64,000 nucleotides of DNA from Henriciella pelagia. GTDB lineage: Bacteria; Pseudomonadota; Alphaproteobacteria; Caulobacterales; Hyphomonadaceae. Position 1 is the first letter of the stretch, and the number at the start of each line of letters is the position of its first letter. The notes beneath the pieces were generated by a model that was not told the DNA's origin, did no database searches, and worked only from the letters and a program-made list of their open reading frames with translations. Positions 19,281-59,226 of this stretch are shown here, piece after piece. The stretch is taken from positions 992,001 to 1,056,000 of the forward strand of contig NZ_NCSU01000007.1 of NCBI RefSeq assembly GCF_002088945.1, given 5' to 3'. Made by a program: the position numbers and the translations under genes.

Positions 19281-19823
19281 ATGAAGAAAAGCATTACGGC
19301 AATGGCACTGGTAATCGGCATGGGGCTGGTGACCGCGTGCGGCGGCTCAGGCGACGAGCCCGGCGAAGCTGCTCCGCCACCACCTGTAGAAACCGAAACG
19401 CCAGACGCCGACCCGGCGGAACCGGCGGAGGCCGAGACGCCTGAGACAACGCAAGCCGCCGGCAGCTCGGAATTTGCCGCCCTGCCGGAACCCTACGCAT
19501 CGGCTGACTTTGACCGCGGCAAGCGCGTCTTCCTGCAGTGCCAGTCCTGTCACACGCTGACCGATGGTGGAGCCGTCGTCCTTGGCCCGAACCTCTACGG
19601 AATGTTCGGCCGGGAAGTCGGCACGTCGGATGGGTTCGAATATTCAGCTGCGCTTCAGGAAGCTGACTTCATCTGGACCCCAGAGCTGCTCGACCAGTGG
19701 CTGGCACGGCCGCGAGATTTCCTGCCCGGCAACAATATGAGCTTTGCCGGTGTGCAGCGCCCCGACGACCGTACGGCTGTTATCGCCTATGTGATGTCAC
19801 AGACCGGGTATGAGGCGCCGTAA
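19281..19823 (+). CDS. Monohaem c-type cytochrome, lipoprotein
   Basis: A 180-residue class I cytochrome c. The signal ends in lipobox VTAC (Cys20), giving a membrane-anchored periplasmic protein; a Pro/Glu/Ala-rich linker runs to about residue 72. The haem motif is CQSCH (near residues 90-94), and a Met ligand is plausible in NNMSFAGVQRPDD. Cytochromes of this shape are related to cytochrome c2/c550-like carriers used between cytochrome bc1 and oxidases. It converges with moeA with only eight bases between stops. The role is general electron transfer; nothing ties it to a specific partner. Confidence 0.9.
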   Translation: MKKSITAMALVIGMGLVTACGGSGDEPGEAAPPPPVETETPDADPAEPAEAETPETTQAAGSSEFAALPEPYASADFDRGKRVFLQCQSCHTLTDGGAVVLGPNLYGMFGREVGTSDGFEYSAALQEADFIWTPELLDQWLARPRDFLPGNNMSFAGVQRPDDRTAVIAYVMSQTGYEAP

Positions 19824-19831
19824 GCGGCCGC

Positions 19832-21037
19832 TCAGGAAGACAGCCCCAGCGGCTTCATCAGCAAGACATCCACACATTCGCCCGCCACAAGTGCGGGCGA
19901 ATTCGATTTGCGCATCAAAAGCGCATTGCCGCTGACAAAGGGTGAAATGAGCGAGCTGTCCTGACTGCCGGCAGGCTTCACCTCAACCATGCCTTCGTCG
20001 GTAATGCGGGCATTGGCGCGCATGAAATGCGTGCGCGGTCCGTTCGATGGCAGGTCGCAGCAGAGCCGGGCGGGCACGAAACTGTGTTCCTGCCCGGTAA
20101 TGAGGGGCTTCAGGAACAGCCAGGCACAGACAAAGGCCGATGCCGGATTGCCGGGCAGGCCGAGTGTGACGGCGTCGTCCTTCGTGGAGAACCAGGTTGG
20201 CTTGCCGGGCCGCACGGCGATCTTCTCGAACACTGACTGAAAGCCTGCACCCGCAAAGGCCGGCCGCATCAGATCATGATCGCCGACCGATGCTCCGCCG
20301 ACAGGCAGGAAGATATCGATCCGCTTTGCTGTCTCAATACGCTCCGAGATGGCGTCGAGATCGTCCGGTGCGACCCCGAGATCGACAGCTTCGCCGCCCC
20401 AGCTCGAGATCAGGGCTGAGAGGCCAATCGGGTTCGAATTCACGATCTGGCCGGGCTGAAGGTCTGAGCCGGGTGGGCGCAGCTCATCGCCATTGGCAAG
20501 GATGCCCACGCGGGGACGCCGGTATACTGAGAGGGTCGCAAGGTTTGCTGCAGCGATCAGGGAAAGCTCAGCCGCACCGAGCACTGTGCCTTCGCGGAGC
20601 AGTGTGGCCCCTGCTTCAAAGTCCACGCCGGCTGCGCGGATGTGTTCGGCCGTGTCATAGGCGCGGTGACAGGTAAGGGTATCACCGTCGCGGGTGGCAT
20701 CTTCCTGTATGACGATATGGTCTGCCCCCGCCGGCAGGACGCCGCCGGTAAAGATGCGAACCGCTTGTCCGGGGCCGAGCGTTCCTTCAAACGGCGCGCC
20801 AGCAGGCGCTTCGCCGATGACATCGAGGGTCGAACCGGTGGCCGCGACATCGGCGATACGGACGGCATAGCCATCCATTGCCGAGACGGCGGCAGGCGGA
20901 CGCGACACCTGCGCAACGACATCGCTCGCCAGTCGCAGGCCAAGCGCGTCGGCGAGGGCGACGTTTTCCATGGTGGGGGTCGGTGCGTGTTCGGCGAGGA
21001 GGCGCAGGGCCTCGTCGACGCTTGTCAGGTCGTTCAA
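19832..21037 (-). CDS. moeA: Molybdopterin molybdotransferase MoeA
   Basis: A 401-residue MoeA that inserts molybdate into adenylated molybdopterin. The start is TTG at 21037, overlapping the moaC stop as [18 protein letters not shown] (about 46-59), [19 protein letters not shown], and the GDELRPPG plus [11 protein letters not shown] signature are present, and the MPT-binding [14 protein letters not shown] follows. It lacks an additional fused domain. It is the last gene of the Moco block of the operon. Confidence 0.95.
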
Positions 21038-21516
21038 GGCTCGCCCTTCCGGTAGTCTCCGGACTTTCCGCCCGTTTTCTCGACCAGTTCGATCCCGCCA
21101 ATCACCATCGCCTTGTCGACGGCTTTCAGCATGTCGTAGAGCGTGAGGCAGGCGACTGACACGGCAGTCAGCGCTTCCATCTCGACGCCGGTCTGGCCGC
21201 TTGTCTTTGCCCGCGCGGTGACGGAAACGGCGCTCTCGCCAGCAATCGGCTCAATGTCGACCTTCACGCTTGTCAGCGGAAGCGGGTGACAGAGCGGGAT
21301 GAGGTCGGCCGTTTTCTTTGCGGCCATGATGCCCGCCAGCTCGGCGATCGCGATCGGGTCGCCTTTCCTGGTGTCACGGCTGGTCGCGAGCGTCAGCGTA
21401 TCGGCCGCCATGTCGACCCGGCCACGCGCAATGGCGGTGCGCTGCGTGACGGCCTTGTCGCCGACATCGACCATACGGGCGCGCCCGTCCGGCCCGATAT
21501 GGGTCAGGTCACTCAA
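21034..21516 (-). CDS. moaC: Cyclic pyranopterin monophosphate synthase MoaC
   Basis: A 160-residue MoaC converting 3',8-cyclo-GTP to cyclic pyranopterin monophosphate. [19 protein letters not shown] is the family N-terminus, and [20 protein letters not shown] and [28 protein letters not shown] carry active-site residues. The start is TTG at 21516, overlapping the moaB stop by 4 bp (TTGA). The gene order moaA-D-E-B-C-moeA holds a full set for molybdopterin synthesis. Confidence 0.97.
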
Positions 21517-22058
21517 TGTGCGTGCTCCAGATGCTCCATCAGGCGGGGCATCAGTTCCACCAGGTTACAGGGTTTGTGACGGCTATCGAGCTGAAGCGAG
21601 ATGACCTTGTCCCAGCCATCTTTCACCGCGCCGGTGGAGCCGGGCAGGCAGAAGATGAAGGTTCCGCTGGCGAGGCCGGCAATGGCGCGCGACTGCAGGG
21701 TCGAGAGGCCGACACTCTGGAAGCTCACCTGGTGGAAGATTACCGAAAAGCCTTCGATCACCTTGTCGAAGAGCGGCGTGAGCGCCTCCGGGGTCACGTC
21801 CCGGCCGGTCAGGCCCGTTCCGCCGCTCGTGATCACGACGTCGATATCCGGGTCTGCGATCCATGTTGAGACCTGGGCGCGGATCGCAGCCTTGTCGTCG
21901 GTCACGATCTTCCTGTCGGCGACGACGTGTCCTGCGCCTTCGATGCGCTGGGCGAGCGTGGTGCCGGACGTATCGGTGTCGAAGGTGCGCGTGTCGCTGA
22001 TCACCAGGATGGCGATGCGGACCGGGATGAATTCGAGGCTTTCATTGATGCCGTGCAT
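21513..22058 (-). CDS. moaB: Molybdopterin adenylyltransferase / MoaB
   Basis: A 181-residue MogA/MoaB-type protein. [18 protein letters not shown] and [21 protein letters not shown] are the MPT-binding motifs; the C-terminus has [18 protein letters not shown]. MogA adenylates molybdopterin; MoaB of this length can substitute for it. The start is ATG at 22058. It overlaps moaC by 4 bp at the 3' end and follows moaE by 12 bases. Confidence 0.95.
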
Positions 22059-22070
22059 GGTGTGTGTCCT

Positions 22071-22523
22071 TCAGCTTCGCGTCCAGCGGGCGCGATCCTT
22101 ATAGTCTTCGGCGCGGGGTTCAATCCATTGCGTTCCCGAGGCGGTCGTTTCCTTTTTCCAGAAAATCGCTTCGGTCTTGAGATAGTCCATCAGGAAGTCG
22201 GCGGCCTCGAACGCCGCGCGCCGGTGCGCGGACGCTGTGGCGACAAAGACGATGGCATCGCCGGGAGACATGTCGCCCGTGCGATGGATGATGTGACTGT
22301 CAATCAGGGGCCAGCGCTCATGTGCCGCCTTGCGGGCCTCTGCGATGCCGGTCTCGGTCATGGGTGAGTAAGCCTGAAGGTGCAGGGTCTCGACCTTGCT
22401 GGAGGAGGCCTGATCGCGCACCAGCCCCGTGAAGCTCACCACCGCGCCTGCGCCGGTGGCGCGAGCCGTGAATTCGCTGAGGGCTTCGGCAGCATCGAAG
22501 GGCTGGTCGGAAATCCTGATCAT
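22071..22523 (-). CDS. moaE: Molybdopterin synthase catalytic subunit MoaE
   Basis: A 150-residue MoaE. GAVVSFTGLVRDQASSS is the N-terminal signature; HRTGDMSPGDAIVFVATASAHRRAAFEA holds the conserved loop and active-site segment, and IFWKKETTASGTQWIEP is the C-terminal Lys-rich catalytic region. It pairs with MoaD to add the dithiolene sulfurs. It follows moaD directly, two bases after its stop. Confidence 0.96.
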   Translation of the reverse strand: MIRISDQPFDAAEALSEFTARATGAGAVVSFTGLVRDQASSSKVETLHLQAYSPMTETGIAEARKAAHERWPLIDSHIIHRTGDMSPGDAIVFVATASAHRRAAFEAADFLMDYLKTEAIFWKKETTASGTQWIEPRAEDYKDRARWTRS

Positions 22524-22525
22524 GG

Positions 22526-22774
22526 TCAGCCGCCTCCGACAGGGGGCAGGAAGGCTATTTCGTCCCCGTCAGTGACCGGATAGGGATCAGTGACGATCTC
22601 GCCATTGACTGCGAGGCGGACGGAGGCCTCAAGCAGCGCGCCGTCGAGCGCGTTCTCCTGGTCCAGCCAGGACCGGACCGCAGACGTGTCGGAAACGGAC
22701 GCCGGCAGGCTGACCTGCTCGCAGAAGGTACCCGTCACATCGCTGAGACGTCCGAAATAGAGGATTTCTGCCAT
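22526..22774 (-). CDS. moaD: Molybdopterin synthase sulfur-carrier subunit MoaD
   Basis: An 82-residue ubiquitin-fold sulfur carrier ending in a Gly-Gly tail (PPVGGG), where the thiocarboxylate forms. It begins MAEILYFGRLSDVTG, as MoaD does. The length is typical (about 80). The gene lies three bases after moaA and two before moaE, so all are probably cotranslated. The E1-like MoeB that would activate the tail is not in the window. Confidence 0.95.
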   Translation of the reverse strand: MAEILYFGRLSDVTGTFCEQVSLPASVSDTSAVRSWLDQENALDGALLEASVRLAVNGEIVTDPYPVTDGDEIAFLPPVGGG

Positions 22775-22777
22775 TGA

Positions 22778-23809
22778 TCAGCCTCCGGTCACCGACATGT
22801 GGCGGGGTAGGGCAGGGGTCTCGGCGCGGTCACGAATAGCAAAGTCATGCTTTTCGGGCTTCCTGAGCAGCGCCCGGTCAAGCGCGGCATCGAGCGCCTG
22901 TTCAGGACTGTCGCTTTTGCGCAGGGCGCTTCTGAGATCAACATGGTCATCCTGGCCGAGACACATATAGATGCGCCCGGTACAGGTTACGCGGACGCGG
23001 TTGCATCCGGCGCAGAAATTGTTGGTGAGCGGCGTAATGAAGCCGAGTTTCCCGCCGGTTTCACGGATGCGGACATAGCGCGAAGGGCCTGCCATCCTCG
23101 TGTCCGTAGCTTCGTCCTCCAGCGTCCAGAGCTGGTCGAGCCGGTCGCGGATCTCGAAGAGCGGAACGTACTGGTCGATGCGGTCTTCGCCAGTGTCGCC
23201 GAGCGGCATGACTTCGATCAGGGTCATGTCGAAGCCGCGACCATGCGCCCATTCCACCATGTGCGGAATCTCGGCCGCGTTCTGATGCCTGAGCGCGACC
23301 GTGTTGATCTTGATCTTGAGGCCGGCCTCCTGCGCGGCATTGATCCCACGAATGACCTTGTCGAAGTCTCCGCGGCGGGTGATTTCGCGGAACATGTCCG
23401 GGTCGAGCGTGTCGAGGGAGATATTCACACGGCGCACGCCGGCGGCATGCAGGCGTTCGGCATCGCGCTCCAGCAGGGTGGCATTGGTGGTCAGTGTCAG
23501 CTCATCGAGGCCTGCGCCGAGATGGGTGCCGAGGCGGTCAAACAGCTGGCCGATATCCTTGCGAACCAGAGGCTCCCCACCCGTGATGCGGATCTTGCGG
23601 ACGCCGCGGCGAATGAAGGCAGTGGCAACGGTTTCAAGCTCTTCCAGCGTCAGCAGGTCCTTCTTCGGCAGGAATGTCATGTGCTCGGCCATGCAATAGG
23701 CGCAGCGAAGGTCGCACCGGTCCGTCACGGACAGGCGAAGATAGGTCACCGTCCGACCGAAGGCGTCCCGCAGGGGCGGCGGAGTGATCGGCGCGAGACT
23801 GTCAGGCAT
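22778..23809 (-). CDS. moaA: GTP 3',8-cyclase MoaA (radical SAM)
   Basis: A 343-residue radical SAM enzyme that starts molybdopterin synthesis from GTP. Cys32, Cys36 and Cys39 (RCDLRCAYC) bind the SAM cluster; the C-terminal second cluster site is FCAGCNRVR followed by MC after 13 residues. The protein ends in Gly-Gly, needed for function in the family. ATG at 23809 is chosen; a longer reading would extend through the XdhC-MocA gene. It overlaps that gene's 3' end by 8 bp. Confidence 0.97.
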
Positions 23810-25307
23810 ATCGGGTCTCCAGGCTGGCCATGAGATCGGCCAGCGTATCCACATCTCGGGCTTCTTCAGCCCGGAGCGCAATGGCGGCGGTATCGCTGAG
23901 CTTGGCGAAGACCGATTTTGCGCCCGTGTCGCCGGTCAGGCCACAAAGCGCGTCAAAAGTCTCGTCTGAAAACATGGCGGGTGGAAGAAAGATGCCGTCT
24001 GCCTCACTCATGACCGCGCTGTAGCCCTCTGCGTGTCTGGTGGCGACCTCGAAGAGGTGCGCGTCGCTGAGACCCGGCATGTCGGCGAGGAGGATCATGA
24101 CGGATGCGGCCCCAACGGTTTGGCGGGCCGCCTCGACACCGGTGCGAAGGGATGTGGACTGGCCGTCCTTCGCCACCGGGTTTTCGACGATCGTCCAGCC
24201 ATGCCTTGCAAGGATCGACGCGCGTTCGGCCTGGCCCGGAGCGGTGACGGCGATGCGCGCTGCGCAAGGGACGGTCTGGAGCAGCCGCGCCGATCTTTCC
24301 AGCAGGGGCGCGCCGTCCAGGTCAGCGAGCAGCTTGTCGCCATTCTCGAACCGCGTCGATTGTCCTGCCGCCAGCAGGATGACCGCCGTGGAAGCGAGCA
24401 CATTGGACTTCTGGATGTGGTAGGCCTCGACAATTTCGGCCATGGCCGACACCGCCAGCATCGATGCATCGCGCATGGATCCAATGAGGCCGATGGGGCC
24501 GCGAATCCGGTTGACCGCAGGCTGGGCTACCCCGCTCGCCAGCAATTGCTGGGTCCGGCGCTGATGTGTTCTGGCGCTGCCGACGGCGCCGACATAAAAG
24601 GCGGCTCCATCCAGCGCCTGCTGTAGCAGCGGCACTTCCCAGTCCGTGTCGTGGAACATCAGGACGAAAGCCGTGAAAGGATCATCGCAATTGGCAGGAA
24701 GTGCGCTGGGCGTGTCCAGCGCCTCCGCGTCCTCAAAGCCTTCTTGCCTGGCGTGTGAGATGTCTTCGCCATCGCGAAGCTGGAGGACAGTTTCAATCCC
24801 GCTCGCGCTGGCGAGACGCGCAAGGGCGAGGCAGTCTGCGCCGCGCCCCGCAATGCGGAGCCTTAGCTTCGGCGTGTAGCGCGCCTTGAACCCGTTGGCG
24901 GCGCTGAGGCAAAGATGTGCAGGCTTTCGGGCCTGCAGGCGCTCGCGGCAGGCCGTGACGGCGGCAATGTCCGGGGCGGGGTCTATGATGAGGTCTATGG
25001 CACCGCCGCAGGGCAAAGGCAGGTCCGTGAAAGGAGAGCCGGCACCATAGCGCAAGCTGCGCGATTGTCCGATCTCCAGTGCTCGCATGGCCTGAAGGGC
25101 GACATCGGCGTCTATGCATCCGCCGGAAATATAGCCCGCAACAGCGCCGGTCGCGCTGACGGCCATCAGGGCCCCCACATCGCGAACAGCCCCGCCATGC
25201 GTGCCCGTGATCATGACGAGGGCAGCGCCATCGCTCGCATGCCACGCCAGAAACTGGCTGAGCACGTCTTCGGCGTGTTCAAGGTATCGAGCGTTCGGCG
25301 GTGGCAT
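23802..25307 (-). CDS. XdhC-MocA fusion: Moco sulfuration/insertion factor plus cytidylyltransferase
   Basis: A 501-residue two-domain protein. Residues 1 to about 300 are XdhC/CoxI-like ([32 protein letters not shown], then [14 protein letters not shown] and the [14 protein letters not shown]-type stretch). Residues about 310-501 are a MobA/MocA NTP transferase ([50 protein letters not shown]). XdhC factors deliver sulfurated Moco to xanthine-oxidase-family enzymes, and MocA makes the CMP form they use. A fusion of both fits the molybdoenzymes at 29.4-34.5 kb. The direction of travel, mocA then moaA, places it within the Moco operon. The domain boundary is approximate. Confidence 0.9.
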
Positions 25308-25346
25308 GAATGCCGTTGTAAACGCTCATTTAGATCGAGGCCAGTG

Positions 25347-25700
25347 CTAATCGTCGCGCTCAAGAGCCATCAGCTTCTTCAGCGCCGTCATGCTGCTGGA
25401 AAGCGAGGCTTCATTCACCGAATGATAGAGGGCGAGCACCTGGTGGCCGGTCTCGGTTACCTCCGAGCCGCCGCGCTCTGTGCCGCCATGTGTTGATTTG
25501 ACAAGCGGTTCGGCGAAGTCGCGGTTCATGTCTTCGATCAGTTTCAACGCGCGGGGATAGGACATACCGAGGCCGCTCGCTGCCTTCGAGATCGAGCCGG
25601 CCTCGTCTATGGCAGCCAAAAGGGATGCCTTGCCGGGGCCGAAGCGACCGCCATGGCCGAGATTGATCCGGATGCTGAGGGAGAGGTCCTGTCTGGTCAT
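25347..25700 (-). CDS. Short ModE-like winged-helix regulator
   Basis: A 117-residue protein matching only the N-terminal DNA-binding domain of ModE. GRFGPGKASLLAAIDEAGSI and SKAASGLGMSYPRALKLIEDMNR form the helix-turn-helix; VKSTHGGTERGGSEVTETGHQVL is the wing. The molybdate-binding Mop/TOBE domains of full ModE (about 260 residues) are absent, so it cannot sense molybdate by that route. Its start overlaps the soxA stop by 4 bp, tying it to the sulfur genes. It may regulate this operon, by analogy with other short LysR-type ModE proteins. Confidence 0.88.
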   Translation of the reverse strand: MTRQDLSLSIRINLGHGGRFGPGKASLLAAIDEAGSISKAASGLGMSYPRALKLIEDMNRDFAEPLVKSTHGGTERGGSEVTETGHQVLALYHSVNEASLSSSMTALKKLMALERDD

Positions 25701-26491
25701 CTGCGCACTCCGGGCACTTCGATGGGCAGGCCTTCGGCGCGTTTCGCGAGGTAGAGTTCGACGGCGAGATAGTCGTCTGAACCGTAGGCCAGGGGCTCTG
25801 CCCGCACGCCGGCATCACAATCTCGAAGGCGGCGCTGCAGCGATCCGAGTGACTGCCATTCAAACCGGTAGCCGGGAAACGCGGTGCCATGCCCCTGACT
25901 GATCGTGTCGCCGCGCAGCTGCCTTCCCCAATTGTCGTTGTGGCACTGATTACAGGCAAGATTATATTGCCCTCGGCGCGTGAAAAAATAGTCTTCACCG
26001 CGCCGGTACCAGACCTCGGCGGGGCCGGACACATCAACCTTCACCGGCTCACCCCTGGAGAGATGCGAGACAAAGGCGGTCAGCGAGAGCAGATCGTCGG
26101 TCTCATAATCGAGAGGCTCCAGCCCCTGATGGCGCGTGCGGCAGAGATTGATGCGCCCTTCGATATTGGTGAGCTTGCCGGTGGTTTCGTCCACGGAAGG
26201 GTAGTGCGCAGCAGCGCCTTTCAGTTCAGCACCGTCCTCGCCGTGGCAGGCCGCGCAGGCTTTCGACTGCTGGGGGGCGGCTGCAAAGAGGGCGCGCCCC
26301 CGATCGACCCAGAGAAAACCGGGATTGGCGAAATCGTCATCCTGAAGGGCCTGGGTGTCTGCCTGCAGGAATTTATAGCCGGAAGTCAGGTCTGAAGCAG
26401 GGAGTTTTTCTCGCGTCTCATCGGCTGTCGGGGCCGGCGCGCATGCGGCCGCGAGAGTGAAGACTGTGATGACCGGGGCCAGCCACTTCAT
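25697..26491 (-). CDS. soxA: SoxA, dihaem c-type cytochrome of thiosulfate oxidation
   Basis: A 264-residue SoxA. It pairs with SoxX to join thiosulfate to the SoxY cysteine. Two haem motifs are visible, CAACH (near residue 79) and CNQCH (near 183). The active-site Cys ligand is RLRDCDAGVRAEP near residue 226. Signal peptide: MKWLAPVITVFTLAAAC, with a Cys placed so that lipoprotein processing is possible. GINLCRTRHQG-like (here INLCRTRHQG) is a SoxA motif. It overlaps soxZ by 4 bp at its start and the ModE-like gene by 4 bp at its end. Confidence 0.93.
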   Translation of the reverse strand: MKWLAPVITVFTLAAACAPAPTADETREKLPASDLTSGYKFLQADTQALQDDDFANPGFLWVDRGRALFAAAPQQSKACAACHGEDGAELKGAAAHYPSVDETTGKLTNIEGRINLCRTRHQGLEPLDYETDDLLSLTAFVSHLSRGEPVKVDVSGPAEVWYRRGEDYFFTRRGQYNLACNQCHNDNWGRQLRGDTISQGHGTAFPGYRFEWQSLGSLQRRLRDCDAGVRAEPLAYGSDDYLAVELYLAKRAEGLPIEVPGVRR

Positions 26492-26805
26492 TTGACGGTG
26501 AGCGAATGGGTTTCAGCCCAGGATTGGCCGTTCTGGTCCGTCCAGCGAAACTCCAGCGTGCCAGACTTGGTCGCGCGGGTGTAGAAGGTCAGGAAGGGAT
26601 TTGCGGCAATGCCCGGATGAAACCTCGCCTGGAACACCGTGTCGCCGTCATAGGTGCACTCGAATGTAGTGATGATGTCGCGTTCGATGATCTCGCCGCG
26701 ATTGTTGCGGCGGTAGCCTGTTTCCATCGGGTGCTGGATCAGCGCCTTGAGCTCGATGACCTCGTTCTTGCTGGCGGTATCGGGAGCGGAAATGCGAATG
26801 GACAT
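26488..26805 (-). CDS. soxZ: SoxZ, sulfur carrier partner of SoxY
   Basis: A 105-residue SoxZ, an Ig-like beta-sandwich that forms the SoxYZ heterodimer. It begins MSIRISAPDTASKNEVIELK, followed by LIQHPMETGYRRNNRGEIIE, the SoxZ hallmark, and ends ETHSLTVK. ATG at 26805 is chosen because the family N-terminus starts here; a longer reading would extend into soxY. It has no signal peptide, as usual for SoxZ, which is exported with the Tat-signal-bearing SoxY. It follows soxY by eight bases. Confidence 0.95.
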   Translation of the reverse strand: MSIRISAPDTASKNEVIELKALIQHPMETGYRRNNRGEIIERDIITTFECTYDGDTVFQARFHPGIAANPFLTFYTRATKSGTLEFRWTDQNGQSWAETHSLTVK

Positions 26806-26813
26806 GCTGTCTC

Positions 26814-27293
26814 CTATCCGATGATGCAGGCGGCGAGCGTGACGACCGTGCTCGCCTTGCCGAGCCACAGGCTGCCGTCGCTCATTTCGGCGACAGCACG
26901 GATTGTCTGCGTGCCGGCCATGCGAATACGGGTGGCGACCTCGGCCTTGCCGGCGCGTGGTCCGAGCTGGAATTCGGCCACTTCAGCGAGCGGGTTGCGC
27001 GGCGAGATGATGGCGATCCGTCTGACGTGATCGTTCTCGGTCATCGGACTATCGACCGTGACCTTGATGGCGACCGAATTTCCGTTCTCCGCGATAGGTG
27101 GGAGGTCAACCGTCACGCGGCCTTCGTTCAGCTCTCCGTCGCCAAAAAGGTCCCTGATGGCCTTGTCAGCGTCTGCAGCTTCTGCGGAGGTCGACATTGG
27201 AAAGGCTGCGCACACCAGGCCGGCCGTGCCAAGCGTGAGAAGCCGCCTGCGGTCGAGCATGAAATTGAACTTGTCCTGTTTCATCATTTCCAT
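26814..27293 (-). CDS. soxY: SoxY, sulfur-carrying protein with an atypical C-terminus
   Basis: A 159-residue SoxY. The N-terminus carries a Tat signal (DRRRLLTLG near residues 14-22, then AFPMSTSAEA). The core (VTVDLPPIAENGNSVAIKVTV, DHVRRIAIISPRNPLAEVAEF) matches SoxY. Sulfur substrates are normally carried on the Cys of a flexible C-terminal GGCGG arm. Here the tail is TLAACIIG: the Cys is kept but the glycines that make the arm flexible are replaced. Other frames do not give GGCGG, so a simple frameshift does not explain it. Whether this is a recognised subclass I cannot say. It precedes soxZ and follows soxX. Confidence 0.9.
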   Translation of the reverse strand: MEMMKQDKFNFMLDRRRLLTLGTAGLVCAAFPMSTSAEAADADKAIRDLFGDGELNEGRVTVDLPPIAENGNSVAIKVTVDSPMTENDHVRRIAIISPRNPLAEVAEFQLGPRAGKAEVATRIRMAGTQTIRAVAEMSDGSLWLGKASTVVTLAACIIG

Positions 27294-27294
27294 T

Positions 27295-27744
27295 TCAGGC
27301 CTTCGGACTTGAAAGATAGGCCACGAGGTCTTCGATCTGCTGCGCGCTGAGCGCAGGTTCTCCGAGATATTCGCGTCCGACCCGGTTTAGACCGTGCTTG
27401 CGGTAATATGAGGGCATAACGGTTTCTGGCCAAATTTTCTGTGCGCCCGCAATGCGCATCCGTATCTGGCCTTCGGTCAGACGATCGCCCAAATGGGTGA
27501 GCGGTGGACCGACATCGCCCTGAAATTCCACATCGAGGCCTTCGATGGCGTGGCAGAGCACGCAATGGCCCTGGTCGCGGTCTGTGAAGACGGTGAGGCC
27601 GCGTTCGGCATTGCCGGCCTTGCCTTCGAGGCTGCGCACGATGGCGTCTCCCTCGACCTCGACATCGCTGGCAAATTGATAGGCGTCATCCGGCTGGCAC
27701 GCTGCGAGCCATATCGACATGGCGCAGCCAAGGACAACTCTCAC
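27295..27744 (-). CDS. soxX: SoxX, monohaem c-type cytochrome of thiosulfate oxidation
   Basis: A 149-residue SoxX. The haem motif is CVLCH (near residues 61-65), in ERGLTVFTDRDQGHCVLCH, and the Met ligand is in ETVMPSYYR. GDVGPPLTHLGDRLTEGQIRMR is a SoxX signature. The N-terminal signal ends IWLAAC, so a lipid-anchored form is possible. The start is GTG at 27744, overlapping the flavocytochrome gene by 4 bp. It should form the SoxXA dimer with the product of soxA, which lies after soxY and soxZ. Confidence 0.92.
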   Translation of the reverse strand: MRVVLGCAMSIWLAACQPDDAYQFASDVEVEGDAIVRSLEGKAGNAERGLTVFTDRDQGHCVLCHAIEGLDVEFQGDVGPPLTHLGDRLTEGQIRMRIAGAQKIWPETVMPSYYRKHGLNRVGREYLGEPALSAQQIEDLVAYLSSPKA

Positions 27745-29024
27745 CCAAACGCCTCTTGCGTAATGGTGCGGAACCAGGTGTCGGCCTGCGCGGCTTCGGC
27801 GGTCCGAACGCTGTCATCGGCGTTTTCGGGGGAAAGGCCGCCCGCGCCGTCGATACTGGCAAGCTGGCCATCGGCATTCGAATAGACACCGGTGATAGAG
27901 ATCGCCTGATCGGGCGAAATATAGGAGTAGCAAGTATTGGCGAGCACGGTCGGTTCAAGGTCGAGTCCGGCAACCTGACGCGCGATCTGCATGGCGCAGA
28001 ACTTGGCCTGCAGGTTCGCGGAGAATGCTGATTTCGGCATTGGCGCGGCGATGGTTGCGTCGCCGATGACATGAATGTCCGGCTGCAGGGTTGATGAGAA
28101 GTCGAGAGGATTGATCGGGCACCAGCCTGTCTCGTCGGCGACGCCGGCCCGCTCAGCGATCTCGCCTGCCTTTTGCGGCGGGATGACGTTGGCGACGCTG
28201 GCGGCGATGTCTTCAAAGTCAGTCGACAGCGTCATGGTCGGGGCATCGACGGACACCACTCGCCCGAAATCAGCTGCGCCGCGCCATTCAAGATGATCCG
28301 GGTAGAGCTTTGCCCAGGCTTCGAGGAAGAGCGGCTTCTTTGAGAAGCTGTCCTTGGCGTCGAGGATAAGGAGTTTTGATGCCGGCTTCTGCGTCTTCAG
28401 ATAGTGCGCAATGAGGCTCGCACGCTCATAGGGCCCGGGCGGGCAACGAAAAGGGGCGAGCGGGGCGGACATGACGACCAGGCCACCATCCTCCATCGCT
28501 TCGAGCTGCTGGCGAAGGAGCGAGGTCTGAGCGCCCGCCTTCCATGCGTGCGGCATGACTTCCGCGGCAGCTTCGTCATAGCCTTCGAGCGCGCCCCAGC
28601 GGATATCCACGCCGGGCGACATGATGAGCTTGTCGTAGGCAACCGACCCGCCGCCTTCCAGAAGGGAGACGGTGTGGGCATCGACATCCACATCCCCTGC
28701 GGTCTGGTGGACCACGTCGATCCCGAGCGCGCGCAGACCGTCATAGGTAAAAGCCTGCTGGCTGATCTCTCTCTGTCCGCCAATCACGAGATTGCTGAAG
28801 GGACAGGCGACGAAGGTCTCATTCGGCTCGATCAGGGTGACAGAGGTATTGGGCAGGAAGTGCTTGAGGAATTTCGCAGCTGTCGCGCCGCCAAAGCCGC
28901 CGCCGATGACAACGAGGCGGGCATTTGTCTGCGCAATCGCACGGGGTGCGAGTACGGGCAGCGCTGCCGTTCCCGCGAGGCCAGCGAGCAAGTGCCTGCG
29001 AGAGAGGGTGACACGCTTGCTCAT
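27741..29024 (-). CDS. fccB: Flavocytochrome c sulfide dehydrogenase, flavoprotein subunit (FccB/SoxF)
   Basis: A 427-residue FAD protein with a Tat signal (LSRRHLLAGLAGTAALP) followed by the Rossmann motif VVIGGGFGGATAAKFLK. Sulfide dehydrogenase landmarks are visible: FVACPFSN (the FAD-linked Cys region), RCPPGPYERAS and GWCPINP, which hold the two Cys of the redox-active disulfide. It should oxidise sulfide in the periplasm and pass electrons to the cytochrome encoded upstream. Its start overlaps the cytochrome gene by 4 bp. SoxF is the name used when the gene sits in a sox cluster. Confidence 0.93.
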   Translation of the reverse strand: MSKRVTLSRRHLLAGLAGTAALPVLAPRAIAQTNARLVVIGGGFGGATAAKFLKHFLPNTSVTLIEPNETFVACPFSNLVIGGQREISQQAFTYDGLRALGIDVVHQTAGDVDVDAHTVSLLEGGGSVAYDKLIMSPGVDIRWGALEGYDEAAAEVMPHAWKAGAQTSLLRQQLEAMEDGGLVVMSAPLAPFRCPPGPYERASLIAHYLKTQKPASKLLILDAKDSFSKKPLFLEAWAKLYPDHLEWRGAADFGRVVSVDAPTMTLSTDFEDIAASVANVIPPQKAGEIAERAGVADETGWCPINPLDFSSTLQPDIHVIGDATIAAPMPKSAFSANLQAKFCAMQIARQVAGLDLEPTVLANTCYSYISPDQAISITGVYSNADGQLASIDGAGGLSPENADDSVRTAEAAQADTWFRTITQEAFG

Positions 29025-29365
29025 TCGTCTTGCCCCGCACCGAGATAGTCGCTGATGGCCTGAAGCTGGTCTTCGCTATAGCCGCGGGTCAGACGGTGCA
29101 TGACCGTCGTGCCGTCGACTTCGAGACGATATCGGTCCAGCGCCGTCATGATGGCCTCGCTCGTATAGTCGCTGATGTCGGCGATGCCACCACCCATACT
29201 TGAGTGGCAGCCTGAGCAGGTCAGGGCGAGGCCAGCCACAGGGCTGAGCCCTGCATTGGCCTGCGCCCCTACGCTCTCATCGGGCGTTGCCGCTGGCGAG
29301 CAGGCAGCCAGACCAGCCCCTGCGAGGAGGCCCGCAAGGATGAGGCCCCGGACCTTTCGGATCAT
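29021..29365 (-). CDS. Small c-type cytochrome, probable FccA/SoxE partner
   Basis: A 114-residue monohaem cytochrome c with a lipoprotein-type signal (LAGAGLAACSP). The haem site is CSGCH (near residue 51), with Met in TVMHRLTRGYS as the likely distal ligand. It overlaps both neighbours by 4 bp (the molybdoenzyme subunit before it, fccB after it), so it could accept electrons from either. The position next to fccB is the usual one for the FccA subunit, but XO-family enzymes of this type also use cytochromes. Confidence 0.88.
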   Translation of the reverse strand: MIRKVRGLILAGLLAGAGLAACSPAATPDESVGAQANAGLSPVAGLALTCSGCHSSMGGGIADISDYTSEAIMTALDRYRLEVDGTTVMHRLTRGYSEDQLQAISDYLGAGQDE

Positions 29366-31572
29366 GCGTCCCTCAGTGACTGGTCCTTGAGCGGGAGCTG
29401 GCGGATGCGTTTGCCGGTCGCCGCATAGATGGCATTGAGGACGGCAGGCGCCGCGACCGCGATGGTCGGCTCACCCACGCCGCCCCAGAAGCCGCCGGAC
29501 GGCATGACAATCGTCTCGACTTCGGGCATCGCGGCGATGCGCATCGAGGGGTAGGTGTTGAAGTTCTTTTGCTGAACTTCGCCGTCCTCAAAGGTCACTT
29601 CCTCATAGAGCGCAGCCGAGAGGCCGTACACGAAGGAGCCGGCGACCTGCGCGTCGATCTGCTGCGGGTTCACGGCATAACCGGGATCGGTGGCGGCAAC
29701 GATGCGATGGATTTTCAGCTCGCCCTCTTCGCTGACGGTCACTTCCGCGCAGGCGGCGGTGTAGCTGCCGAAGGAGTAGAAGGCGCACAGGCCGCGGGAA
29801 AGCCCATCCTCCGCACCCCAGCCGGACTTGTCAGCCACGGCTTGCAGGACGGCGGCGAGCTGCGGGCTGTCCTGTGTATGGGCGAGACGGAACTCCAGCG
29901 GGTCCCGGCCGGCCGCATGGGCAAGTTCGTCCATGAAGCATTCGAGATAGATCGCATTCTGGTTCGCGTTCACGCCGCGCCAGAAGCCGGGGCGAACGGG
30001 CGGGTTCCGCATCGCGTGATCGAAGAGGACAGCCGGGAAGGTGTATTTCAGCGTCTGGTCTTCAGCGCGCGCATCCACACCGCTTGGGAGCAGGCCCTGG
30101 AAGGCAAAGGCGTCCATGCCGTCATTCAGGGCCTGTGGCATCAGGCCGGACAGGATGGACTGTCCGGAAATGCGGATCTTCAGCCCTGTCAGATTACCGT
30201 CAGCATCGAGCGCGCCCTGGCACCGGGCCTTGGTGATCGGGTGATAGAAGCCATGCTCCATGTCTTCTTCACGGGTCCATAGCAGTTTGACAGGCGTGCC
30301 CGGCATCTGCTTGGCGATCTTCACGACCTGGGTGACATAGTCGTTCATGCCGCGCCGACCGAAGCCGCCGCCGAGCAGGAGCTTGTGCACATCGCACTGC
30401 GCGATCGGTATCTCGGCAGCCTCGGCGGCAGCGGCCAGCGCCGCCTCGCCGTTCTGCGTCGGGCACCAGACTTCGCATTTATCCTCGGTCCAGATGGCGG
30501 TCGCGTTCATGGGTTCCATGCAGGCATGGTTCTGGAGCGGCGCATTATAGCGTGCCTCGACGATCTGTGCGGCGCTGTCGAACGCAGCATCGACATCGCC
30601 GATCTTGTTGCCGACAAAGGCCTCTTCGGCCTCAAGCCCTTCGTCCAGCTCGGCTTCGAAGGCACTGCTGGAGAAGTCAGAGCCTTCTCCCGGAGTCCAC
30701 TCGATCGGCAGGGCATCGAGCGCAGTCTTTGCCTGCCACCAATAGTCAGCGACAACAGCAACGCCGGGAAACTGCCCGTCAATCTCAACGACCTTGCGAA
30801 CGCCCGGCATGTCGGCAATGGCGGACTCATCGAAGGAGGCGAGCGTTGCGCCGCGTTTCGGCGGCTGCTTGATGGCCGCGTTCAGCATGCCGTCAAGCAT
30901 GATGTCGGAGCCGTATTTCTGCGCGCCTGTGGTCTTGTCGACCGTATCGAGACGCTGCTTCGGCTGGCCGATGATCGTCCACTCGGAGGGGTCCTTGAGG
31001 GTGATGTCCGTCGGCGGGGTGATCTTGCTGGCATCGTCCGCCACGGCACCATAGGTGAGCGTGTCGCCCGATGGGCCGTGCGTGATGACGCCTTTGGCAA
31101 CCGAGCATTCGCTGACAGGAACACCCCAGCGGGTGGCGGCGGCCTGGATGAGCATGAGGCGTGCCGCAGCGCCGCCTTCGCGAACATAGTCATGGCTGCC
31201 GCGAATGCCGCGCGAGCCGCCAGTCGAGAAATCACGCCAGACGCGGTCACGCGCGAGGTTTTCACCGGGCGTCGGATACTCGGTCGTCACCTTCTCCCAG
31301 TCACATTCGAGCTCCTCGGCGACGAGCTGGGCGAGACCCGTGAGCGTGCCCTGACCCATTTCCGAGCGGGCGATACGGATCGTTACTGTGTCATCGGGCT
31401 TGATGTGGACCCAGGCATTGACCTCGGGAACCGGTTCGGCGTCCGCCATGGGCGGGGTTGGCGTATCCGCGCTTTCGCCCGGCGAGCAGGATGCCAGAAT
31501 GCCGATGGTCAGCCCGGTGGCACCAGTGCCGATGATGAAATTGCGGCGGGAAAGTTTGATTGTATCACCCAT
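29362..31572 (-). CDS. Xanthine-oxidase-family molybdoenzyme, Mo-binding subunit (IorB-like)
   Basis: A 736-residue molybdopterin subunit of the isoquinoline-1-oxidoreductase/aldehyde-dehydrogenase branch. A Tat motif (LSRRNFIIG) is followed by lipobox LASC, so it is a folded protein exported to the periplasm and lipid-anchored. RIARSEMGQGTLTGLAQLVAEEL, GGSRGIRGSHDYVREGGAAAR, GGGFGRRGMNDYVTQ and the Glu-bearing GVGEPTIAVAAP near the C-terminus are family motifs. The FeS subunit is encoded directly upstream. Substrate is probably an aldehyde or N-heterocycle, which sequence cannot settle. Cofactor supply is encoded in the same array (xdhC-mocA, moa genes). Confidence 0.9.
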   Translation of the reverse strand: MGDTIKLSRRNFIIGTGATGLTIGILASCSPGESADTPTPPMADAEPVPEVNAWVHIKPDDTVTIRIARSEMGQGTLTGLAQLVAEELECDWEKVTTEYPTPGENLARDRVWRDFSTGGSRGIRGSHDYVREGGAAARLMLIQAAATRWGVPVSECSVAKGVITHGPSGDTLTYGAVADDASKITPPTDITLKDPSEWTIIGQPKQRLDTVDKTTGAQKYGSDIMLDGMLNAAIKQPPKRGATLASFDESAIADMPGVRKVVEIDGQFPGVAVVADYWWQAKTALDALPIEWTPGEGSDFSSSAFEAELDEGLEAEEAFVGNKIGDVDAAFDSAAQIVEARYNAPLQNHACMEPMNATAIWTEDKCEVWCPTQNGEAALAAAAEAAEIPIAQCDVHKLLLGGGFGRRGMNDYVTQVVKIAKQMPGTPVKLLWTREEDMEHGFYHPITKARCQGALDADGNLTGLKIRISGQSILSGLMPQALNDGMDAFAFQGLLPSGVDARAEDQTLKYTFPAVLFDHAMRNPPVRPGFWRGVNANQNAIYLECFMDELAHAAGRDPLEFRLAHTQDSPQLAAVLQAVADKSGWGAEDGLSRGLCAFYSFGSYTAACAEVTVSEEGELKIHRIVAATDPGYAVNPQQIDAQVAGSFVYGLSAALYEEVTFEDGEVQQKNFNTYPSMRIAAMPEVETIVMPSGGFWGGVGEPTIAVAAPAVLNAIYAATGKRIRQLPLKDQSLRDA

Positions 31573-31587
31573 GTCCGTCGTCTCCCC

Positions 31588-32043
31588 TTAAGCCTTTTTC
31601 GTCTTGGCGAGGTGGATGCCCTTGCGCACGCGAGCAAAGGTCCCGCACCGGCAGATATTGGTGATCTGCTGGTCGATGTCCTCATCGGTGGCGTCCGGCT
31701 TGTTGTTGAGCAGGCCCGCAACCGCCATGATCATGCCGGGCTGACAGAAGCCGCATTGCGGAATGTCCATTTCGACCCAGGCCTGCTGGACAGGGTGGCT
31801 GCCATCTTCGGAGAGCCCCTCAATGGTCGTGATCTCTTCTTCCCCCGAAAGGGCTCCGACAGGATAGGTGCAGGAGCGGACCGGTTGGCCGTCGACATGG
31901 ATGGTGCAGGCTCCGCATTGGGCAATGCCGCAGCCATATTTCGTGCCGGTAAGGCCGAGATGTTCGCGGAGCACCCAGAGCAGGGGCGTAGAATCCTCTG
32001 CGTCCACACTTACCGTTTCACCATTTACCTTGATGTTTGCCAT
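31588..32043 (-). CDS. XO-family [2Fe-2S] subunit (IorA-like)
   Basis: A 151-residue two-cluster iron-sulfur protein. The plant-type ferredoxin cluster is CGIAQCGACTIHVDGQPVRSC; the second is CGFCQPGMIMAVAGLL with ICRCGTF. It transfers electrons from the Mo subunit to a cytochrome. ATG at 32043 is chosen because MANIKVNGETVSVDAED is the family start; an upstream reading adds 26 unconserved-looking residues. It has no export signal, so it presumably travels with the Tat-bearing partner. It heads the long minus-strand array. Confidence 0.93.
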   Translation of the reverse strand: MANIKVNGETVSVDAEDSTPLLWVLREHLGLTGTKYGCGIAQCGACTIHVDGQPVRSCTYPVGALSGEEEITTIEGLSEDGSHPVQQAWVEMDIPQCGFCQPGMIMAVAGLLNNKPDATDEDIDQQITNICRCGTFARVRKGIHLAKTKKA

Positions 32044-32185
32044 GAAGTCAGCCTCCTCGTGCCGGGGGTGGCGGATGATCGAATCCGGGTGCGCAGCACG
32101 TCGAAAATCCCGTCCGTTCATTTTCAGACTAATGCGCTCTCTCGAGAAGGGCCAGAGCCACTCGAAAATTCTCTTGTCATGCGAA

Positions 32186-32217
32186 TAAAAATCAGCCGCC
32201 GAACTGGCCGGCGGCTG
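32186..32217 (-). terminator. Terminator after the upstream XO-family pair
   Basis: A perfect 9-bp stem CAGCCGCCG (32193-32201) and CGGCGGCTG (32209-32217) with a 7-base loop, followed on the minus strand by ATTTTTATT. It separates the 32242-34998 pair from the long operon beginning at 32043. Confidence 0.85.
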
Positions 32218-32241
32218 TCTGTCAGAGTTTTACCGGGGCGC

Positions 32242-34536: not shown

Positions 34537-34998
34537 TTAGCCCTCCCGCATCGTATTGGCCGCTTCGCGCACAGCAGCACGAATGCGATTATAGGTCATG
34601 CAGCGGCAGAGATTGCCGGTCATTATGGCGTCGATATCGTCATCGCTCATGTCGGGGTTCTGCTTGAGGGCGGCTGCTGCCGTCATGATCTGGCCAGACT
34701 GGCAATAGCCGCACTGAGGAACCTGCAGGTTCTGCCACGCCTTCTGGACGGGGTGCTCGCCGGCGGGATCGAGGCCTTCAATCGTGGTGATCTCGGCACC
34801 CTCTGCCGCCGCTAGCGGTGTGATGCAGGAGCGCCGCGCCTCTCCGTTGATATGGATCGTGCACGCGCCGCACTGGCCGATGCCGCAGCCATACTTCGTG
34901 CCGGTGAGATTGGCTTCGTCGCGGATGACCCACAAGAGCGGGGTATCATCCTCCGCATCGATTGTGACATCGCGACCATTGAGTTTGAACGTTGTCAT
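34537..34998 (-). CDS. XO-family [2Fe-2S] subunit, second copy
   Basis: A 153-residue two-cluster protein: CGIGQCGACTIHINGEARRSC for the first cluster and CGYCQSGQIMTAAAALKQ with LCRCMTYNR for the second. ATG at 34998 follows GGGGAGGAAAT, a clear ribosome site. Three bases separate its stop from the Mo subunit. Divergent from the TetR-like gene at 35208. It is a paralogue of the protein at 31588. Confidence 0.94.
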   Translation of the reverse strand: MTTFKLNGRDVTIDAEDDTPLLWVIRDEANLTGTKYGCGIGQCGACTIHINGEARRSCITPLAAAEGAEITTIEGLDPAGEHPVQKAWQNLQVPQCGYCQSGQIMTAAAALKQNPDMSDDDIDAIMTGNLCRCMTYNRIRAAVREAANTMREG

Positions 34999-35154
34999 AT
35001 TTCCTCCCCGTGCATCGATTGATCGATCCTGACGGTCTCGCCAGAGTGGCCGGATCTTGTCGTCCGTTTGATCAATACCTACCACAAAACCTTTGCCTGC
35101 AAACGCTGCTCTCGAAAATGTTTAACCGAATGCTTGCATAGGTCCCGCATGCAT

Positions 35155-57891: not shown

Positions 57892-59031
57892 ATGAGTATA
57901 GTAGCAACCGAGGCGACACGCATCGGTAAATCGCCGCGCGCACGCGCCGGTAGCCGTCTGGCACCTCTCGACGCCCTGCGGGGCATCGCAATCGCTTGGG
58001 TCGCTATCTTCCATTTTTGTTCGTTCTGGGCGCCCTCAGGGGCTGGGGACCCATTGCTGCCCTATGGTGACCTGCTTGCCTGGGTGCCTTTTGCCAGCGT
58101 CGGGTATCTCGGCGTCACCCTGTTCTTCATGATTTCGGGTTTCGTCATCCTCATGACCCTTGAGAGAACGGCGTCGCTGATTGATTTCGCAGTGCGCAGG
58201 TCGGCGCGCATCTGGCCAACGCTGGTTTTGTGCGGGTGTCTGACATGGCTCATCGCTCTCGCGATCGGTCCAGAGCAGTTCAAGGCCAGCCCGGCCGAGT
58301 TCCTGCTCAGCATCTTTGCGTTTCCCCCTCAATATATCGGCGACCTCACTGGCCAGTCGGACTGGGGCTGGCTCGACGGGGCATACTGGTCGCTGTGGGT
58401 GGAAGTGCGGTTCTATGCGATGATCGGTGTCTGCTACTATCTTCTGAAGTCTCGCTGGATGACTGGCTGGTTCGCATTCCAGGGGATTTGTGCGCTGCTG
58501 TTGCTCGGCTTTTCCTTCACGAATCTTGGCGTGCTCGACAAGATCGGATCACTGCTCTTCTATCAGGATGTGGTCTATTTTTCCTTCGGAATGATTGCCT
58601 TCAAAGTGTATTCTGAACGCCGGTTCTCGACCGGAATGAGGGTGGCTTTCGGTCTGAGCGCACTCCACGCACTTGTGCTGGTCCTGCACCTGACGGGTGG
58701 AAAACCGTTCAGTGCTGAATTTGTCTTCGGCTATGCGACCATCTTTATCCTTTTCTGGGCGGCGCTGTGGCACGAACCGTTCAAGAACCTGCTCGCATGG
58801 CAGCCTCTGGTCCAGATTGGACGAGCGTCATACTCCTTCTACCTGCTCCATCAGGTGATCGGGCTCAGCATTATGTACTGGGCAAGCCAGATGATGCCGG
58901 GATGGGCCGTCGCCGCGTTCGTGTTGCCGGCGGTGATAATCCTTCTCCTTGCCCTTTCGAGGGCGGTATTCCTGAACTACGAACAGCCGCTCAATCGCAA
59001 GATCGTGGAGTTGCAGGCCCAGACCGCCTGA
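57892..59031 (+). CDS. Acyltransferase 3 family membrane protein
   Basis: A 379-residue protein with about ten hydrophobic segments of the acyltransferase 3 family. LAPLDALRGIAIAWVAIFHFCSFW is the N-terminal motif with its catalytic His; FFMISGFVILMTLERT is the family R/F box. These enzymes O-acetylate (or succinylate) sugars of surface polymers. ATG at 57892 is favoured because AGGGACA lies seven bases before it; ATG at 57886 is too close. About 35 N-terminal residues precede the first membrane segment. Confidence 0.9.
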   Translation: MSIVATEATRIGKSPRARAGSRLAPLDALRGIAIAWVAIFHFCSFWAPSGAGDPLLPYGDLLAWVPFASVGYLGVTLFFMISGFVILMTLERTASLIDFAVRRSARIWPTLVLCGCLTWLIALAIGPEQFKASPAEFLLSIFAFPPQYIGDLTGQSDWGWLDGAYWSLWVEVRFYAMIGVCYYLLKSRWMTGWFAFQGICALLLLGFSFTNLGVLDKIGSLLFYQDVVYFSFGMIAFKVYSERRFSTGMRVAFGLSALHALVLVLHLTGGKPFSAEFVFGYATIFILFWAALWHEPFKNLLAWQPLVQIGRASYSFYLLHQVIGLSIMYWASQMMPGWAVAAFVLPAVIILLLALSRAVFLNYEQPLNRKIVELQAQTA

Positions 59032-59226
59032 TCTGCCCGAACAGGATCTGCGGAGCGGCAAGTTTCTTGCGTGTCCGAGCGGAAGCCGTAACGTTTCGGT
59101 TCAGTTCATTCAGCCTGAGGAAAAGGTTGCCTTGCAAAGTCGTGATCAGAATGTCGGCAGTGCAGACCACCGGGCCGTTTTACCTGTCATCGGGTGCTTC
59201 GGCACCTTTGCGCCAGGAGTGATCTC

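Follow-up and report, generated by a model that had tools for sequence, protein, structure and literature searches.

What does a molybdenum (Mo) hydroxylase of the xanthine oxidase (XO) family do in one gene array with Sox proteins and a flavocytochrome c? The question is raised by a 64,000-nucleotide stretch of the 3.44 Mb genome of Henriciella pelagia (Alphaproteobacteria, Hyphomonadaceae; contig NZ_NCSU01000007.1, positions 992,001 to 1,056,000), hereafter the window. From 32043 to 19832 its minus strand carries 16 genes in a single orientation, encoding the iron-sulfur (FeS_a) and molybdenum (Mo_a) subunits of the hydroxylase, an FccA-like cytochrome, FccB, SoxX, SoxY, SoxZ, SoxA, a ModE-like protein, an XdhC-MocA fusion, MoaA, MoaD, MoaE, MoaB, MoaC and MoeA. 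An initial annotation, made from the DNA letters, had named these families and this order of transcription, which NCBIfam, Pfam and the translations confirm. The main point, which it overlooked, is the altered carrier arm of SoxY together with the absence of SoxB and SoxCD. The reading that we favour, with a probability of roughly 0.45, is a periplasmic Sox variant lacking SoxB and SoxCD, whose oxidising step would fall to the Mo hydroxylase, most likely acting on a small organic sulfur compound.

An altered SoxY arm and no SoxB or SoxCD

The array SoxY passes the NCBIfam model TIGR04487, 'SoxY-related AACIE arm protein' (182.9 bits, cut-off 172), and stays under the cut-off of the true-SoxY model TIGR04488 (109.2 bits against 125). 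Its C-terminus reads TLAACIIG: AAC replaces the GGC of the arm, the residue after the I is a second I and not the E of the family name, and the ending AACIIG compares with GGCGG in canonical SoxY, a solved SoxY aligned to the protein reading VTIGGC. The array SoxY is a member of the AACIE-arm paralogue family and not the thiosulfate SoxY. Although it exceeds the curated cut-off, the model only names the protein, and relatives with the same arm and the Mo enzyme miss that cut-off (170.6 bits in G323 and 158.1 in G382; G and L numbers are our handles for genomes and loci). Database records bearing the TIGR04487 name beside a Mo enzyme include those of Methylobacterium NMS14P and Neorhizobium galegae. 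Because PAC and GAC (L209, L210) and LAC (L198) also occur beside the Mo enzyme, the constant part of the arm is xAC.

SoxA, SoxX and SoxZ all exceed their curated cut-offs (TIGR04484, TIGR04485, TIGR04490), and SoxA retains the cysteine region RRLRDC when aligned to the solved SoxA 1h31. The flavoprotein and small cytochrome form a flavocytochrome c sulfide dehydrogenase pair, with 5n1t A and B as best solved relatives; solved relatives of FccB are 5n1t_A (E value 2e-129), 1fcd_A (6e-112) and also 3vrd.

SoxB (TIGR04486) had no match in the window's genome (G000) or in four further Hyphomonadaceae genomes, and was over the cut-off in all 16 other genomes of the same search. Neither SoxC (TIGR04555) nor the PF00174 fold was found in any of these five Hyphomonadaceae genomes. 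With SoxB and SoxC absent, the canonical thiosulfate Sox pathway is ruled out. The array shares with the complete system (SoxXYZABCD) the SoxXA cytochromes, a SoxYZ carrier with a C-terminal cysteine and a Mo enzyme passing electrons to c-type cytochromes; it differs in lacking SoxB and SoxCD, in the AAC arm and in a Mo enzyme of the xanthine oxidase rather than the sulfite oxidase family.

A further kind of SoxY, with the tail ATNGC or ATDGC and accompanied by SoxZ and FccB-like genes, occurs at L208 (8.9-9.9 kb), L213 (8.8-10 kb), L179 and L190. Its hosts are rhizobia and a Bradyrhizobium-like genome, the stretch examined holds neither Mo_a nor SoxB, and the tail is possibly a third arm type.

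The altered arm is paired with the Mo enzyme in three classes

We scored 398 genomes of the phylum with TIGR04487 and with a Mo_a model (built from 11 Sox-linked enzymes for this survey and for the scan of named loci below, and from 16 for the neighbourhood searches). The 20 genomes best matched by TIGR04487 (at least 158 bits) are the same 20 that hold the best Mo_a matches (at least 1356 bits). We then searched 40 SoxY neighbourhoods of up to 20 kb, from the 19 best genomes besides the window's own, from G016 and from 20 controls; the controls were hand-picked from the TIGR04487 matches, mostly next in rank with some skipped, G202 standing far down the list. The SoxB model used here, and for named loci and plasmids, was a single sequence. 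Around SoxY with an AAC or SAC arm, FeS_a-Mo_a was present in 19 of 19 neighbourhoods and SoxB in none; around SoxY ending in GGC (20) or NGC (1), Mo_a was found in 0 of 21 and SoxB in 17. Five genomes have one SoxY of each kind (G289, G335, G382, G202, G217). In a quick SoxY tree a single branch (support 93) parts 69 Mo_a-adjacent proteins from 21 others. Distances between Mo_a and between SoxY proteins correlate over 63 loci (r 0.85), a value that carries no weight for coupling because shared descent of the organisms explains it too.

The pairing was also viewed from the Mo enzyme, in 80 named loci that are the best 80 of at least 376 candidates confirmed in a scan with the Mo_a alignment (18 of the 80 are Bradyrhizobium). 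The nearest named relatives of Mo_a are those of Henriciella mobilis (83% identity) and Henriciella algicola (80%). SoxY lies within 6 kb of the Mo enzyme in 68 of the 80, with SoxX, SoxY, SoxZ and SoxA all present in 64, and SoxB in none as far as the flanks reach. Of the 68 arms, 63 are AAC, three SAC and one GAC, and one further frame has no visible tail. FccB is near in just 40 of these 68, and the small cytochrome starting at 29021 resembles FccA, which gives no particular support to the earlier suggestion that the Mo enzyme shares this cytochrome.

Among the 12 loci without SoxY, five have less than 1 kb of downstream sequence and seven more than 4 kb. For L060, L061, L108 and L120, whole-genome look-ups located Sox modules with an AAC arm on other contigs; they located no such module in the genomes of L062, L063, L065, L077 and L083, which are gammaproteobacterial metagenome-assembled genomes (MAGs), or of L092, L123 and L128; the best SoxY match in these eight has a GGC arm, except for DGC in the genome of L123 and no match in that of L062. 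At L104 (4057-7051) and L132 the Mo enzyme is followed by SoxYZ and SoxXA is not beside it, L132 ending 1.7 kb downstream. Each of the two genomes also encodes another xAC-arm SoxY, together with SoxX, SoxZ and SoxA (L198 and L199, the match in L199 having an inside stop). The label of L104, Chitinophaga pinensis, is doubtful as a MAG name or through binning, because the locus groups with a Burkholderiales row.

Chance local gene order is ruled out as the explanation, since the pairing occurs in alpha-, beta- and gammaproteobacteria. The coordinated use of Mo hydroxylase and Sox proteins proposed in the initial annotation gains from this breadth, with the reservation that the pairing is not found in every lineage that has the enzyme.

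One such cluster has been described before. Starkeya novella carries a second sox cluster, soxX2Y2Z2A2F2 plus the XO-family Mo enzyme Snov_1975/1976, which was reported in 2013 and lacks SoxB and SoxCD (PMC3797975; this and the other papers cited were available to us in part). In the sections consulted, its expression is very low on glucose, methanol or thiosulfate, its SoxAX and SoxYZ are undetected in the proteome, and one flavocytochrome subunit is present at low levels except on glucose (PMC3797975). The two clusters are alike in that a single operon joins SoxX, SoxY, SoxZ, SoxA and flavocytochrome c to an XO-family Mo enzyme and lacks SoxB and SoxCD; they differ in that no moa block is mentioned in those sections and that Starkeya possesses, in addition, a full Sox system and SorAB. 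Unlike Starkeya, the five Hyphomonadaceae genomes have no SoxB, SoxC or PF00174 fold. The Ancylobacter locus L091 carries the same gene set as the Starkeya cluster, with an AAC-arm SoxY, and Ancylobacter is presumably a close relative of Starkeya.

What the Mo hydroxylase may oxidise

With both Mo-cofactor-binding domains and an FeS subunit of two clusters, the enzyme belongs to the XO family, and the leader of Mo_a is of the twin-arginine type (SRRNF). Enzymes of this family normally hydroxylate carbon, and a small organic sulfur compound is for this reason a likelier substrate than thiosulfate. Glu701 of Mo_a lies in GGVGEP, and Glu occupies this column in 87 of 88 Sox-linked rows (the other has a gap) and in 16 of 16 distant rows; we take it to be the family's catalytic Glu, which lies close to the C-terminus and serves in carbon hydroxylation. 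Thirty-two positions are near-invariant across the Sox-linked set of 88 and rarely matched in 16 family members that are more distant. Several adjoin Mo-domain motifs (H444, N535, W696, T703), and these positions may touch the substrate; a comparison of these two groups does not by itself tie them to Sox. The predicted structure of Mo_a is poor (mean predicted local distance difference test score, pLDDT, of 67).

In the reading that we favour, SoxXA would attach a sulfur substrate to the cysteine of the altered SoxYZ arm, AAC in place of GGC, and periplasmic FeS_a-Mo_a would oxidise the carried compound or its free form, a step done by SoxCD in the complete pathway. FccAB, where present, would oxidise leftover sulfide or persulfide, and electrons would exit via c-type cytochromes. 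In Hyphomonadaceae the cofactor genes (XdhC-MocA, moaADEBC, moeA) have joined the same array. Gene content, conserved pairing, the altered arm and the lack of SoxB and SoxC in five family genomes can be read directly from the sequences; we infer the periplasmic location, the order of steps and the role of the Mo enzyme, and the class of substrate is our guess. A wider proposition, that this is a second kind of Sox pathway across Proteobacteria, independent of SoxB and SoxCD, in which an XO-family hydroxylase oxidises an organosulfur compound hanging on the AAC arm of SoxYZ by carbon-hydroxylating Mo chemistry, seems to us rather unlikely.

Instead, the Mo hydroxylase might genuinely take the place of SoxCD, with sulfane sulfur in inorganic form on SoxYZ as its substrate (sulfide, polysulfide or thiosulfate-derived). 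The layout of the module, Sox minus SoxB and SoxCD and often with FccB, would suit such a role, and no carbon-handling gene recurs throughout the loci. We nevertheless hold it improbable, given that the Glu to which we ascribe carbon hydroxylation is kept and that, with SoxB absent in Hyphomonadaceae, we know of no route by which sulfate would be released from the carrier there. The very weak expression of the Starkeya cluster on thiosulfate, in the sections available of PMC3797975, likewise speaks against a SoxCD replacement and for the organic sulfur reading.

Mo enzymes without Sox genes and the competing explanations

Several observations weigh against our reading. A search of 64 named loci for recurrent neighbouring genes (the 80 less 16 of the 18 from Bradyrhizobium), with open reading frames (ORFs) of at least 90 amino acids, found no family outside the module that recurs throughout the 64 and would name a substrate. 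The best solved relative of Mo_a is 8gy3_C, the large subunit of an aldehyde dehydrogenase (E value 6e-109, 725 profile columns, nearly the whole length). Of 36 plasmid records with Mo_a, 23 of them from Sinorhizobium, we examined the neighbourhood of the enzyme in nine: Sox genes lie beside it in three and not in six, the latter from Sinorhizobium, Rhizobium, Agrobacterium and Methylosinus (L201, L202, L203, L207, L211, L212). Several gammaproteobacterial MAGs likewise have the Mo enzyme without an xAC-arm SoxY. In trees, the gammaproteobacterial MAG rows and five of the six Sox-less plasmid rows fall inside the Sox-linked clade (L211, a split frame, was not placed), and the Mo enzyme can thus work without this carrier. 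In G139 (L137, 8383-12516) the order is FeS-Mo-SoxX-SoxA, with no SoxYZ beside it, and the genome gives no match to TIGR04487; there, SoxXA may serve the Mo enzyme directly as cytochromes. Finally, the authors of the Starkeya study suggest, in the sections available, that their cluster is either without functional importance in that organism or active in conditions other than those tried (PMC3797975).

The Mo enzymes of these Sox-less plasmids are 56-62% identical. Four annotated Sox-less plasmid loci have a cytochrome c gene beside FeS-Mo (two from Sinorhizobium, one each from Agrobacterium and Methylosinus); that of Methylosinus is multiheme, and a GGC-arm SoxY with SoxB lies about 94 kb off on the same plasmid. 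An unqualified rule that the Mo enzyme always goes with Sox is ruled out by the Sox-less plasmid and MAG loci. The tree positions suggest that the Sox part was lost repeatedly and that the Mo enzyme would still be useful alone.

These loci bear on the possibility that the enzyme is a periplasmic aldehyde dehydrogenase using SoxXA or FccA as its c-type cytochrome, with SoxYZ a bystander or in a separate sulfide role. The match to 8gy3_C, the cytochrome c genes of the four plasmid loci and the arrangement in G139 all favour it. Like 8gy3, the array encodes a homologous Mo subunit and a small FeS subunit and no flavin adenine dinucleotide (FAD) subunit; unlike 8gy3, its enzyme is coupled to Sox proteins, and no array gene is recognised as an 8gy3-type cytochrome subunit. 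That subunit is multi-heme in 8gy3-type aldehyde dehydrogenases; the cytochromes of the array, to which this comparison was confined, are the FccA-like protein, SoxX and SoxA with two CxxCH motifs. Against the aldehyde dehydrogenase stands the AAC-type arm, found in 67 of 80 Mo-enzyme loci and in 0 of 21 SoxY loci without the Mo enzyme: an arm change confined to where the Mo enzyme is present is not expected of a bystander. The 32 near-invariant positions of the 88 Sox-linked enzymes may point the same way, in a comparison with the 16 distant members that does not by itself tie them to Sox. On balance we regard this alternative as somewhat unlikely.

It is very improbable, in our estimate, that the module is a duplicated Sox cluster, barely expressed and with no function of its own, which is the view proposed for Starkeya novella. 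The very low transcripts there and the undetected SoxAX and SoxYZ, as far as the available sections report (PMC3797975), would fit, but intact modules of similar arrangement occur in alpha-, beta- and gammaproteobacteria, and in the five Hyphomonadaceae genomes searched no SoxB was found anywhere and the sole MoaC lies with the module. On the sequence evidence, the coupling of Mo hydroxylase and altered carrier is a conserved but not universal trait of a Sox variant that, as far as our searches tell, had been seen in passing and not worked out.

Related carriers and earlier surveys

A SoxYZ relative tied to a dehydrogenase rather than to a sulfur enzyme is also represented by the fused SoxYZ-like carrier of pyrroloquinoline quinone (PQQ) alcohol dehydrogenases, TIGR04557 (PMC12997753, in the part available). 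That family is fused and found with PQQ enzymes (PMC12997753, same part), whereas the array SoxY and SoxZ are separate and score 68.9 and 52.3 bits against a cut-off of 140. As far as the accessible text goes, a comparison of sulfur oxidisers places SoxXYZAB in all three core pathways (PMC6397845), and a SoxY phylogeny discarded sequences that lack the GGC motif (PMC11237559), a filter by which AAC-arm SoxY would have been excluded. In SAR324, SoxYZ adjoins flavocytochrome c, and isoquinoline 1-oxidoreductase genes are noted in a separate section (PMC4782131, consulted in part). Within the portions of the literature examined, PMC3797975 alone reports Sox genes clustered with a Mo enzyme of the XO family, no work joins arm type, Mo enzyme and SoxB absence, and no text contains both 'SoxY' and 'AACIE'.

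The moa block and cofactor supply

The moa genes accompany the module in the window, in the four other family genomes and in five named loci of Henriciella, Hyphomonas and Ponticaulis (the Mo_a of L057 and of G323 are near-identical); the remaining 75 named loci show no MoaA within the reach of their flanks. Conservation of the neighbourhood, proposed earlier as a check, thus extends beyond this genome for the Mo enzyme and Sox, and for sox and moa was seen in Hyphomonadaceae alone. In Ponticaulis (L069) the moa block lies upstream of FeS_a and not downstream, a rearrangement that kept the neighbourhood together.

MoaC is single-copy in all five Hyphomonadaceae genomes and is located in this array. 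The claim of a complete molybdopterin pathway in the array holds for moaA, D, E, B, C, moeA and XdhC-MocA; the one ThiF/MoeB-type gene detected in the genome lies elsewhere (C14:87157). For G075 and G220, the three families searched yielded no Mo enzyme besides Mo_a (MoCoBD_2 gave only Mo_a, PF00384 only NuoG, PF00174 nothing), and the cofactor pathway may therefore serve Mo_a alone there. That the whole pathway serves Mo_a is ruled out where other Mo enzymes are present: the window's own genome has a second XO-family pair (Mo_b, described below) and an 897-amino-acid protein like nitrate reductase or formate dehydrogenase, and G309 and G323 have two further XO-family genes each.

Layout of the array and neighbouring features

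The features are collected in Table 1. No gap in the array exceeds 39 bp. Its 15 junctions comprise seven 4-bp overlaps, which bears out the frequent overlaps of the initial annotation, one 8-bp overlap (XdhC-MocA/MoaA) and seven gaps of 1-39 bp. We place the start of FeS_a at the ATG at 32043 (MANIK...); the version of the ORF caller runs to 32121. The gene called ModE-like has the helix-turn-helix part of ModE, lacks the molybdate-binding part and remains under the TIGR00637 cut-off.

Table 1. Genes of the array, in order of transcription, and the hairpin preceding it (window positions)
Feature	Position	Strand	Evidence
Terminator-like hairpin and T-run, between upstream Mo_b pair and array	32193..32217	-	pattern scan
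FeS_a, small [2Fe-2S]x2 subunit of Mo hydroxylase	31588..32043	-	Pfam Fer2 and Fer2_2 (PF00111, PF01799)
Mo_a, molybdenum subunit, xanthine-oxidase family	29362..31572	-	Pfam MoCoBD_1 and MoCoBD_2 (PF02738, PF20256)
Small c-type cytochrome (CSGCH), FccA-like	29021..29365	-	best solved relative 5n1t_B, E 2e-6
FccB, flavocytochrome c sulfide dehydrogenase flavoprotein	27741..29024	-	Pfam FCSD_central and FCSD-flav_bind
SoxX, c-type cytochrome	27295..27744	-	TIGR04485 74.2 bits, cut-off 61
SoxY, AACIE-arm kind, C-terminus TLAACIIG	26814..27293	-	TIGR04487 182.9 bits, cut-off 172; translation
SoxZ	26488..26805	-	TIGR04490 97.2 bits, cut-off 76
SoxA, two CxxCH motifs	25697..26491	-	TIGR04484 229 bits, cut-off 110; 1h31_A E 1.3e-52
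ModE-like DNA-binding domain, without molybdate-binding part	25347..25700	-	TIGR00637 66.5 bits, below cut-off 98.5; Pfam HTH_1
XdhC-MocA fusion (Mo-cofactor chaperone and cytidylyltransferase)	23802..25307	-	Pfam XdhC_CoxI, XdhC_C, NTP_transf_3
MoaA	22778..23809	-	Pfam Radical_SAM and Mob_synth_C
MoaD	22526..22774	-	Pfam ThiS; C-terminal GG in translation
MoaE	22071..22523	-	Pfam MoaE
MoaB (MogA-type)	21513..22058	-	Pfam MoCF_biosynth
MoaC, sole copy found in genome	21034..21516	-	Pfam MoaC
MoeA	19832..21037	-	Pfam MoeA_N, MoCF_biosynth, MoeA_C

Terminator-like matches are not enriched across the region overall (7 against 9.9 in shuffles). Promoter-like matches numbered 2 in the region, with 2.6 expected by chance, and are uninformative in an alphaproteobacterium; an Rfam search of the window gave no match.

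Just upstream on the minus strand lies the second, distant XO-family FeS/Mo pair (34537-35085 and 32242-34533), whose Mo subunit, Mo_b, shares no more than 35% identity with any protein in the Mo_a tree. Henriciella mobilis (L056) likewise has a second pair upstream, and H. algicola (L057) has none in 9 kb upstream. A 938-amino-acid open frame on the plus strand (30385-33201), antisense to both Mo genes and without a Pfam match, is in all likelihood a shadow frame, as arises in coding DNA of high GC content. A c-type cytochrome gene (19281-19823, plus strand) converges on the end of the array. AT skew is -0.278 at 58001-60000, all other 2-kb steps of the window being within 0.14 of zero.

At other loci, a solute-binding protein and two transport permeases lie 4-10 kb downstream of Mo_a in five or six cases (L066, L072, L074, L094, L103, L116), in Rhizobiales and Roseomonas-like hosts, which may reflect chance, kinship or a substrate importer. 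A sensor-kinase-like pair is near the module in five loci (L070, L071, L091, L106, L123). Both sets were named from reading the sequences, with no family search made.

Implications

If our reading is correct, genomes such as Henriciella may be wrongly taken for thiosulfate oxidisers, and a Mo enzyme of no known substrate gains a testable partner. The state of G075 and G220, with Mo_a as sole Mo enzyme among the families searched, would permit a clean genetic test.

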